Below are positions 20,641 through 23,955 of a stretch of DNA of 49,655 bases, piece after piece (the stretch's first letter is position 1; each line of letters begins with the position of its first letter). The stretch is from contig JANYGK010000067.1 in assembly GCA_025362395.1 (NCBI GenBank), positions 1 through 49,655 on the forward strand. The letters are read 5' to 3'. Under the pieces are notes generated by a model that was not told where the DNA came from, did no database searches, and saw only the letters and a program-made list of their open reading frames with translations. The translations under genes and the position numbers were made by a program. The stretch is from Bacteroidota bacterium (GTDB lineage: Bacteria; Bacteroidota; Bacteroidia; B-17B0; Aurantibacillaceae).

Positions 20641-23001
20641 ATGAAAAAACTGCTACTTTCCCTTTCTGTTTTATTATTTGCTTGTGCGCTGCATGCACAG
20701 GATTTTAATTTAGACGACCTGCCAAACCATTTAGTAAGAGAGTTAAATAAATTCAGAAACTTAAACGGGCTTGATACCTTTGAAGTAAATGATATTTTAA
20801 TTAATGCTGCAGCTATTGATGCCAAAAAAATGGCTAAATCAGGCCAGGCAAAAGTAGATCCCGAAAAAGTAAAAAAGAATTTAGTAAAGGCCGGCGGCAC
20901 AAATAAAGGAGAAGAAACCGCCATGCTCGCTCCTGTGAGTAAAGGCAGAGACACATATAATACCGCGCAGGTAGCAAAGGTTATTTGGACGCGTTGGGAA
21001 AATACTAAAAAAGATAAGGCCGTTTTGCTCAGTCCGCAATACATGATGGTTGGGTTTAAATGCACCATGGATAAGGATAATAAAAAAGTAGTGGCTGTTG
21101 CTGTATACGGTGGTTACGACAGCTTTAATGCCGGTGCCAAGAAGAAAAAAGAATTAGCGGTGCCGTTCAATACAAAATCTAAAAAATTGCAAGCACCTGA
21201 TCTTAAAGCATGCAAAAACTGTGATAAATGGAAAAACTACGATCTGCTGCAAAAAGGGTTAACGGTTGAAAACGGAAAAATCTATTTAGAATATGCAAAC
21301 CTTAAAGACCTGAAACGCTTGTTGAAGAAAACAAAAGACGGATTGGCTGTAGACATTGTGCAGCGCGCCCAGTATGAGAAACCGGATTATAACATTGTAG
21401 ATAACAATTTGCAAAGTAAAGGAGTAATGCAAAAAGTAATTTATAAAGACAATGTGTTTTCTAAAAATTTAATTAAACCCGACAAAAAAGCTAAGAAAAA
21501 GATCAAGACCAATAAACTAAGGTTAGAAATGGGTAAATTCAATAAGAAAATTACAGGTCCTTATGAATTAAATTTAATTGTGGTGCAGGATGGGCACGTT
21601 TGCAGAACCGTAACACGAAGCTATTTAGAGGAAGGCGATCAAGATAGTAATACGCCTATCGGTTTGCTGCCTGCCCCCGAAAGTGTTGGTTTAAAGCCGC
21701 CTTTTGAGCCAAAATCAGAAAGCTCAATTTTAAATTTCACCATTCCTTTCGAAAAAAATAAATCTGAATTTAAAGCGGAAGATGTTCAGCCTTTTATCAG
21801 GGCATTAAATGAACCTGATTTTGTGATCGACGGCTTATACATTTATGCCTATTCATCTATTGAAGGAGATGCCAAGGCTAATGCCAAGCTGCAACGTAAG
21901 CGCGCGGAAAGCGTAACTAAAGTGTTGCAAAGCATGCAGAACAATAAAATAAACCCTACTATTGAAACAAAAGATTCGTGGAATTTATTTGAAATGGAAA
22001 TGGAAGACGGAAAATATGCGGAGCTTGTGAAAATGGGTAAAGATAAAGCCGTTAAAAAAATTAATGCTGACGGCTCTTTATTAAGCGAACTGGAACCTGT
22101 TTTGGCGAAGCAACGTTTTGCACAAATTGTGATGGATGTAACCTATGATATTTCAGGCGATAAGGAACAACGTTTTACCACCGTTTCTTTTAACCGTGCG
22201 TTAAAGGCAAATAAAATACCGCAGGCTTATAAAATTATGGAATACGCTGCTACAAAAGTTATTCAGAAAAAATATACGGAAGACGCTATGGATAGTCTAA
22301 AACTGCCCAATGATGCTAAGTTTGCTAATTTTATGAATAATAAGGTCTACTTTAATTATTTAGGTAACAGCAGTATTGTGGATGAAGATGATTATATTGA
22401 ATTGAAACGATTAGAAAAACTGGATCCTGCAAATGATGTGATTCGCTATAACAGGATTTTTAGTTCTATAAAATTAGATACAAGCTTAGGCACAAAAGAG
22501 CAGCAGTCTAAATTACAACAAGACATTGACGCTTTATATAAATCGAAGATCACTAAAAAACAAGTGGACGGCTTAAATATTGAATGGCAATTTAAAATTA
22601 TGGAATCATTGGATACCGTTGAAAATGCAGAGCCTCAAATTGAAGCCTGTATTACACGCATCAAAAGCTTTTATAATTTTAAAGACGCCACCTGGCAAAA
22701 TGCTTTAAAGTTGGCGTATGTATTTACCCGGGGAAAAGATTATAAATTCTCCGGTAATATACTCGAGCCTTTCTTAAAAGTAGAGGGTGTAGATGAAGGA
22801 TTATTATTCAGCTACATCTCAATAGCATCTCACTTGCCTGAAAAGTTTTACAGCCGTAATTTTAACGATGCCTTGCATAAAGCAAAAGAAAAAAATCCTC
22901 AAAGGTATTGTGAGCTCTTTGGTGACCCGAGAATGTCGTTTCAGGTATTAGGCAACCCTAATGCTAAAGCGGATTACAAAGAAGCAGGCTGTGCAAAATA
23001 A
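20641..23001 (+). CDS. Secreted CAP-like plus OmpA-like protein
   Basis: The 786-residue protein has a signal peptide (KKLLLSLSVLLFACALHAQ). Residues about 25-165 look like a CAP/SCP fold (LVRELNKFRNLNGLDTFEVN, VIWTRWENTKKDKAVLL, YMMVGFKCTMD) but lack the usual His-rich active site. Residues about 362-507 resemble an OmpA-type peptidoglycan-binding region (FTIPFEKNKSEF, YSSIEGDAKANAKLQRKRAESV). A helical C-terminal part follows. It may act at the envelope; the combination is unusual and the exact function unknown. It is divergent from accC and about 50 nt upstream of the attenuator leader. Confidence 0.6.
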   Translation: MKKLLLSLSVLLFACALHAQDFNLDDLPNHLVRELNKFRNLNGLDTFEVNDILINAAAIDAKKMAKSGQAKVDPEKVKKNLVKAGGTNKGEETAMLAPVSKGRDTYNTAQVAKVIWTRWENTKKDKAVLLSPQYMMVGFKCTMDKDNKKVVAVAVYGGYDSFNAGAKKKKELAVPFNTKSKKLQAPDLKACKNCDKWKNYDLLQKGLTVENGKIYLEYANLKDLKRLLKKTKDGLAVDIVQRAQYEKPDYNIVDNNLQSKGVMQKVIYKDNVFSKNLIKPDKKAKKKIKTNKLRLEMGKFNKKITGPYELNLIVVQDGHVCRTVTRSYLEEGDQDSNTPIGLLPAPESVGLKPPFEPKSESSILNFTIPFEKNKSEFKAEDVQPFIRALNEPDFVIDGLYIYAYSSIEGDAKANAKLQRKRAESVTKVLQSMQNNKINPTIETKDSWNLFEMEMEDGKYAELVKMGKDKAVKKINADGSLLSELEPVLAKQRFAQIVMDVTYDISGDKEQRFTTVSFNRALKANKIPQAYKIMEYAATKVIQKKYTEDAMDSLKLPNDAKFANFMNNKVYFNYLGNSSIVDEDDYIELKRLEKLDPANDVIRYNRIFSSIKLDTSLGTKEQQSKLQQDIDALYKSKITKKQVDGLNIEWQFKIMESLDTVENAEPQIEACITRIKSFYNFKDATWQNALKLAYVFTRGKDYKFSGNILEPFLKVEGVDEGLLFSYISIASHLPEKFYSRNFNDALHKAKEKNPQRYCELFGDPRMSFQVLGNPNAKADYKEAGCAK

Positions 23002-23051
23002 AAATGTTCAATTAAATTTTTAATATTCGAATTATTACTTAGTATTGTATA

Positions 23052-23111
23052 ATGAAAAAAATGAACACCTCTTTCTATTATTATTACCTGCTTTCAGTTA
23101 TGAAACGGTAA
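23052..23111 (+). CDS. Phe/Tyr-rich leader peptide of an attenuator
   Basis: This 19-codon ORF encodes MKKMNTSFYYYYLLSVMKR. It has one Phe and four consecutive Tyr codons (23073-23087). The TAA is at 23109-23111. It lies upstream of a strong terminator and of the phenylalanine 4-hydroxylase gene, which makes tyrosine from phenylalanine. That is exactly the arrangement of ribosome-mediated attenuation. No other role for it is apparent. Confidence 0.75.
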   Translation: MKKMNTSFYYYYLLSVMKR

Positions 23112-23177
23112 AGTGTGCGTAATATTTTTATTTTACAATACTAAATACAACCCGTTTCTTTTGAAACGGGTTTTTTT
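23102..23177 (+). promoter_or_regulatory. Attenuator: antiterminator/terminator switch
   Basis: GAAACGG at 23102-23108 (end of the leader ORF) is complementary to CCGTTTC at 23152-23158, the left arm of the terminator. A ribosome stalled on the Tyr codons 23076-23087 would leave GAAACGG free to form the antiterminator and expression would proceed. A ribosome reaching the stop codon would cover it and the terminator would fold. This predicts induction when tyrosine is short. Confidence 0.7.
23149..23177 (+). terminator. Intrinsic terminator of the attenuator
   Basis: AACCCGTTTC-TTTT-GAAACGGGTT is a perfect 10-bp stem followed by a run of T (23171-23177). It lies 34 nt before the hydroxylase start. 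Confidence 0.9.
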
Positions 23178-23211
23178 ATGAGCTTATATTAACCTCTAAA
23201 ACCAAAATACG

Positions 23212-23955
23212 ATGATCAACAAAAGACCAACAAGGCAAATTTATACGGACTATACGCCACAAGACCTTAACGTATGGCAAACCTTATTTACCCGGCAGAT
23301 GGAAATTTTACAGCCGATAGTTTCTTCAGAATATTTAAATGCTTTGAAAGCTGTTAATTTTACCGCAGCTAAAATTCCTGATTTTGAAGAGATCAATTAC
23401 TTATTAAAACCGCTGACAGGTTGGTCGTTAGAAGTAGTGCCGAATATTAGCCCTCAACATGAATTTTTTGAATACTTGTCGAAGAAAAAATTTACGGCAA
23501 CCTGCTGGTTACGCACTTTTGATCAATTAGATTACCTGGAAGAGCCTGATATGTTTCATGATGTATTTGGCCATGTGCCATTGTTGAGCAATATACATTA
23601 TGTTGCCTTTTTTAAAGGCATCAGCACTATTTTTTTAAAGTACAAAAATAATGATCGGGTAATTGAATTGCTTGGAAGAATGTATTGGTTTACCATTGAA
23701 TTTGGGCTTATAAAAGAAAACCATGCTTTAAAAATTTACGGTGCGGGAATTATTTCTTCCAAAGGAGAAACCCGGCACTGCATGAGTGATCAGGCTGTTC
23801 ATTTGCCGTTTGATGTAGAAAATATTTTTAATACGTCTTTTAGAACAGATATTTACCAGAAAACTTATTTTGTGATTGAATCATTCGACCAATTATACAA
23901 GTCGTTATCACAAATAGAAGAAGCATTAAAGGAATATATAACTGTTGCTTTGTAA
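23212..23955 (+). CDS. phhA: Phenylalanine 4-monooxygenase
   Basis: It hydroxylates phenylalanine to tyrosine with a tetrahydropterin cofactor, O2 and non-heme iron in the cytoplasm. The 247 residues cover only the catalytic domain, as in other bacterial enzymes. Iron ligands are visible as His116 and His121 (FHDVFGH) and Glu163 (MYWFTIEFG). Other family signatures are LEEPDMFHDVFGHVPLL and YGAGIISSKGET. It has no ACT regulatory domain. The upstream leader peptide, antiterminator and terminator place it under tyrosine-sensitive attenuation. No pterin dehydratase gene is adjacent. Confidence 0.92.
   Translation: MINKRPTRQIYTDYTPQDLNVWQTLFTRQMEILQPIVSSEYLNALKAVNFTAAKIPDFEEINYLLKPLTGWSLEVVPNISPQHEFFEYLSKKKFTATCWLRTFDQLDYLEEPDMFHDVFGHVPLLSNIHYVAFFKGISTIFLKYKNNDRVIELLGRMYWFTIEFGLIKENHALKIYGAGIISSKGETRHCMSDQAVHLPFDVENIFNTSFRTDIYQKTYFVIESFDQLYKSLSQIEEALKEYITVAL

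Follow-up and report, generated by a model that had tools for sequence, protein, structure and literature searches.

The question raised by this locus is how a phenylalanine hydroxylase (PAH) gene is controlled when a short reading frame with a run of Tyr codons and an intrinsic terminator stand directly before it. We examined a 49,655-nucleotide stretch of Bacteroidota DNA (hereafter the window) together with PAH loci of its relatives. It is very likely that the region acts on PAH as a ribosome-mediated transcription attenuator, one of the trp/his/phe type, with charged tRNA-Tyr as the sensed signal. We infer this mode of regulation from the structure of these loci, their conservation and covariation, the spacing of the elements, the place of the promoter as predicted from the sequence, and the metabolic context. 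The elements in the window are as follows.

23040 to 23047, plus strand: predicted sigma-A −7 box TAGTATTG, matching TAnnTTTG at 5 of 6 positions and separated by 4 nt from the leader ATG
23052 to 23111, plus strand: leader peptide reading frame MKKMNTSFYYYYLLSVMKR, 19 codons, with equivalents known in relatives
23076 to 23087, plus strand: control codons TAT TAT TAT TAC, four consecutive Tyr
23084 to 23111, plus strand: putative region 1:2 protector hairpin, UUACC..CUUUC / GAAAC..GGUAA, −6.4 kcal/mol
23102 to 23108, plus strand: region 2, GAAACGG in the last codons of the leader reading frame, the 5′ arm of the antiterminator
23112 to 23142, plus strand: inner antiterminator hairpin within the 2:3 helix, AGUGU (23112-23116) / AUACU (23138-23142), an inner extension present in many relatives
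23149 to 23158, plus strand: region 3, the shared arm, which is the terminator left arm and whose CCGTTTC (23152-23158) is the antiterminator 3′ arm
23163 to 23179, plus strand: region 4, terminator right arm (23163-23172) and T tract
23212 to 23955, plus strand: PAH gene, 247 aa (PF00351, NF008877)

A preliminary description of this DNA had reported a 19-codon leader with a Phe and four Tyr codons, a perfect 10-bp terminator with a U tract, and a GAAACGG motif complementary to the left arm of the terminator, and all three were confirmed. Specifically, the leader has Phe8 followed by Tyr9-12 (FYYYY) and ends with a stop codon at 23109-23111; it carries a run of codons for the product of PAH, as is characteristic of attenuators. 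The terminator (23149-23158 / 23163-23172) has 10 perfect pairs, a 4-nt loop and a T tract after it, and GAAACGG pairs with the CCGTTTC of its left arm. The calculated folding energies were −9.8 kcal/mol for the antiterminator and −14.5 kcal/mol for the terminator; since the antiterminator is the weaker of the two, switching has to be under kinetic control, as it is in known attenuators. The antiterminator of the window taken alone was modestly more stable than shuffled sequences (z about −1), an unimpressive value, so that the case for an attenuator rests on comparison among relatives. The fold had a z of −6.4 in the first calculation, which was inflated by a 23-nt inverted repeat (23036-23058 / 23125-23147), and a z of −3.7 when folded from the predicted +1. 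As an RNA stem this repeat was discarded, since the −7 box and the initial bases of the predicted transcript make up its 5′ arm; it is probably not an RNA element. In relatives, segments corresponding to the 1:2 protector folded more stably than their shuffled versions, with a mean z of −1.4 over 54 leaders and z < −1 in 32 of them, suggesting that the protector hairpin is present, on weaker evidence than the other helices.

The proposed mechanism would operate as follows. Transcription would begin at the leader AUG or immediately upstream of it, with a ribosome trailing RNA polymerase along the leader. When tyrosine is plentiful, the ribosome would read through all four Tyr codons, reach the stop codon and cover region 2, allowing the 3:4 terminator to form, and PAH would not be transcribed. 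When Tyr-tRNA is scarce, the ribosome would stall on the Tyr codons and open the 1:2 protector; the freed region 2 would then pair with region 3, the terminator would be blocked, and PAH would be made. If the leader were not translated at all, the 1:2 hairpin would favour termination.

The downstream gene had been taken as a phenylalanine hydroxylase, and profile searches support this. The protein matched PF00351 with 158.6 bits (E 2.6e-46; cut-off 22.7) and NF008877 with 253.5 bits (cut-off 247), and its TIGR01267 score of 247.1 was just below the cut-off of 264.75. Among solved structures, those nearest to it are bacterial phenylalanine-4-hydroxylases. The PAH gene seems to be on its own, because the next sizeable open reading frame 3′ of it is on the opposite strand. 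Note that the gene upstream of the leader (20641-23001) encodes a 786-aa protein with weak matches, to CAP above the cut-off and to OmpA below it. A plasmid search gave no match.

Three sources supplied the PAH loci: the window's family, in which 27 of 87 genomes contributed, GTDB species genomes, which gave 80 loci, and 346 genomes sampled evenly across the class; the order-level search covered the same family only. The resulting 140 loci include near-identical pairs across two collections, and 54 distinct leaders remained once duplicates were removed. The comparison of PAH upstream regions proposed in the preliminary description returned recurring Tyr-rich leaders and covarying stems. Within the family, a Tyr-rich leader was present at 25 of the 26 PAH loci with readable upstream DNA, one of them in a degenerate form, and a leader, a terminator and a competing antiterminator were found in about ten families of Bacteroidia. 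Examples are MNKMNTTYYYYYLMNPIGMVNCCS, MLFTSKYYYQFLYS and MNLSKAYYYWYPRTVGTGMLYIY from three relatives, MTHINNHYYYYYHLFQSGIGNGMVMS from Marivirga atlantica and MQQNRNIQAVYYYYYSQRYCLE from Taibaiella soli. The Tyr codons of the 54 leaders were a mixture of TAT (213) and TAC (63), indicating that the amino acid, not a DNA repeat, is conserved. Other Bacteroidia have long PAH genes (~590 aa), and in the 20 loci of these that were read no leader was seen. The locus carrying MNLSKAYYYWYPRTVGTGMLYIY also holds a cobalamin riboswitch (RF00174; 1163-1384, minus strand; 95 bits).

The regulatory logic suggested earlier, namely that an enzyme making tyrosine is preceded by a leader coding for tyrosine, was strengthened by the gene content of the genomes. 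In the window genome, which is 99% complete, neither prephenate dehydrogenase (TyrA) nor prephenate dehydratase (PheA) was detected at E ≤ 0.001, and chorismate synthase and PAH are present. Because TyrA and PheA are undetectable, PAH is probably the only tyrosine source of this genome. Prephenate dehydratase was likewise undetectable in 79 of the 86 other family genomes, and chorismate synthase was nearly always there; judged by these genes, the family looks phenylalanine-auxotrophic. A strong TyrA match was obtained in 1 of the 87 family genomes, and the weak partial matches in 19 others are read as other dehydrogenases. The PAH of the genome with the strong match is distant (37% identity to that of the window) and has no leader, its locus being the sole one without a Tyr-rich leader among the readable 26. 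Family members without PAH mostly have no recognised tyrosine route at all.

One could accept the attenuator and still suppose that PAH serves chiefly to degrade phenylalanine. HPPD, which catalyses the following step dedicated to breaking down tyrosine, has a gene at another place in the window genome and gave over-cut-off matches in 81 of the 87 family genomes; tyrosine can therefore also be degraded, and PAH could feed catabolism too. However, Tyr codons in the leader would bring about induction at tyrosine shortage, and a degradative enzyme calls for the reverse. Where PAH lies directly downstream of HPPD, as at four loci of one family (f66; HPPD checked by TIGR01263 at one of these loci), the Tyr leader is missing and TyrA is present, and the PAH of this family is degradative. 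In the class sample, TyrA was found in 1 of 20 genomes with a Tyr leader, 4 of 5 with a mixed Tyr/His leader and 11 of 19 without a Tyr leader, so that Tyr leaders accompany TyrA absence (1/20 vs 11/19; nominal Fisher P 0.0004, uncorrected for relatedness and with some leaders classed by eye). In addition, mutant fitness pointed to a biosynthetic role for PAH in Dyella and in Echinicola, a member of the Bacteroidota in which PAH mattered in tyrosine-free media (PMC7311316). A chiefly degradative role is therefore unlikely, and an attenuator serving tyrosine supply is the preferred reading.

Another reading takes the hairpin as the ordinary terminator of the 786-aa upstream gene, with PAH transcribed from a later promoter of its own and the Tyr reading frame arising by chance in AT-rich DNA. 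The upstream gene does run in the same direction and stops some 50 bp short of the leader, and the region is AT-rich. However, a short reading frame with at least three consecutive Tyr codons together with a terminator was found upstream of PAH at 62 of the 140 loci, compared with 0 of 700 shuffled upstream regions, which excludes a chance origin. The position of the predicted promoter points in the same direction. A perfect Bacteroidota −7 box (TAnnTTTG) was found upstream of 19 of 48 distinct leaders, where 1.1 were expected, usually with a gap of 4-5 nt to the ATG; the box of the window itself is imperfect (5/6). Between terminator and gene, where the gap has a median of about 30 nt, perfect boxes were found at 0 of 53 loci, suggesting that the terminator stands in the path of the PAH transcript. 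Finally, the 2:3 helix covaries, as described below, and such covariation has no role in a plain terminator. We regard this second alternative as very improbable, and the hairpin as the terminator of a PAH attenuator.

The place of the box also bears on how the leader is translated. In Flavobacterium psychrophilum the sigma-A box spans −12 to −5 (PMC9723704); a box in this position, 4-5 nt before the ATG, would place +1 at or near the A of AUG, and the leader mRNA is probably leaderless. Leaderless mRNAs are nevertheless a small class, at only ~4-6%, in the two members of the Bacteroidota that were mapped. The leaderless start and the 1:2 protector are refinements beyond the preliminary description.

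Regions 2 and 3 paired much better within a locus than between loci. Among 49 distinct leaders, the own 2:3 duplex had a mean energy of −14.3 kcal/mol, compared with −11.1 kcal/mol when arms were swapped between loci, and 0 of 20000 permutations were as good. Covariation was measured on a 40-sequence alignment, in which compensatory changes in the antiterminator were two-sided at 7 of 8 pairs and amounted to 33 cells vs 14.9 in shuffled data (0 of 500); those in the terminator amounted to 43 cells vs 14.4 (0 of 500). Alignment columns 116-120 are common to both helices, so that antiterminator and terminator are mutually exclusive.

The spacing had been described as suited to a ribosome that stalls at the Tyr codons and thereby favours the antiterminator, and the conserved geometry of the 54 leaders bears this out. 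If the ribosome is assumed to cover −18 to +12, at least 75% of the antiterminator arm stays free in 52 of the 54 leaders when it sits on the last Tyr codon, and at least half of the arm is covered in 39 of the 54 when it sits on the stop codon. In the remaining 15, the stop codon is too distant for a ribosome halted on it to cover as much as half of the arm.

A third alternative, in which a riboswitch that binds tRNA or a metabolite, or a leader that binds a protein, takes the place of ribosome-mediated attenuation, is as improbable as the plain terminator: terminator/antiterminator logic is common to riboswitches and T-boxes, but at the curated threshold the window matched no Rfam family, T-box and Bacteroid-trp (RF01692) included, with only sub-threshold hits at 22980-23240, and relatives gave no match at their leaders. 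Moreover, the leader has a length of only about 100 nt and no conserved aptamer-like sequence, and its conserved parts are a reading frame with synonymous TAT/TAC variation and the complementarity of the arms.

The leader fits every sequence feature of a trp/his/phe-type attenuator that is open to test. Like the trpL/pheL-type leaders of E. coli, it has consecutive control codons, 1:2, 2:3 and 3:4 helices and an intrinsic terminator before the gene. Unlike them, it would sense Tyr and control a hydroxylase and not a chorismate-branch operon, and it has a predicted Bacteroidota promoter and probably a leaderless mRNA; no sequence relation is claimed. The nearest case to a Tyr leader peptide is AroR of C. 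glutamicum (Phe-Tyr-Phe), located before aroF, which is reported to respond to Phe limitation and not to tyrosine availability (Neshat 2014, reviewed in PMC11802643). It resembles the PAH leader as an aromatic amino-acid leader with a Tyr codon and differs in its signal and in that it controls DAHP synthase. Tyrosine genes elsewhere are under T-boxes (PMC1262725), which likewise sense uncharged tRNA-Tyr and work by antitermination, but bind the tRNA directly, without a leader peptide. Within the Bacteroidota, leader-peptide attenuators have been suggested in F. psychrophilum, with elements before pheA and hisG (PMC9723704), and a trp motif, the Bacteroid-trp RNA (RF01692), has been described (PMC2864571). 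These are also cis-regulatory elements before amino-acid biosynthesis genes, and the parts of the two papers cited here name no PAH or Tyr case.

The preliminary description knew of no such case for a hydroxylase gene in Bacteroidota, and a search of the open-access literature yielded neither a Tyr-specific leader peptide nor an attenuator in front of PAH. Judged by that literature, no tyrosine-specific leader-peptide attenuator appears to have been described before this one, nor any attenuator on a phenylalanine hydroxylase. Bacterial PAH, often read as degradative, hereby gains a biosynthetic role that is readable from sequence alone, and a phylum with few described attenuators gains well-supported ones with covariation and a probable leaderless start. 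The results also suggest that a group of bacteria without TyrA and PheA depends on external phenylalanine, as animals do. A wider picture, which we advance tentatively and with less than even confidence, would join four things: a leaderless Tyr-specific attenuator across Bacteroidia; an animal-like tyrosine supply, with no PheA or TyrA, with Phe uptake, with PAH as the only route and with uncharged tRNA-Tyr as the switch; a leader whose presence or absence separates biosynthetic from degradative PAH; and a mixed Tyr/His leader in the Algoriphagus group that senses two amino acids.

A search of the 87 family genomes with a covariance model of the PAH leader gave no other convincing Tyr-attenuated gene. 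Among the non-PAH matches that were inspected, some were Ile leaders in front of ilvE, one was a Tyr leader at the end of a contig, and the others were weak. The Ile-run leaders, MKQVKNIIIIIQFPN and MKQSTSNIIIIIPLS, precede ilvE-ilvD in the same genus and family; at four loci (e.g., MKQSTSNIIIIIPLS) they have a terminator and an antiterminator and lie about 130-150 bp before ilvE, and they gave no Rfam match. The same device thus appears to be used, with matching codons, for another amino acid at ilvED. The leader-bearing type of ilvE was not found in the window's own genome. The Tyr leader at the contig end is a strong attenuator in a genome where no PAH was found, and the gene was probably lost there in an assembly gap.

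Variants of the PAH leader were also seen. Mixed Tyr/His leaders (MNPTPRTYVHHSHYPLQ, MNQTYHSYSHYHTSFWG) precede PAH at seven loci, in Algoriphagus and in family f15, most of whose genomes also have TyrA; dual sensing of Tyr and His, or drift from TAY to CAY, is possible. In family f47, PAH at three loci has a leader and competing hairpins with no Tyr run (MMNQTAKCFCLNIRPVVDGVGLYCRYGS).
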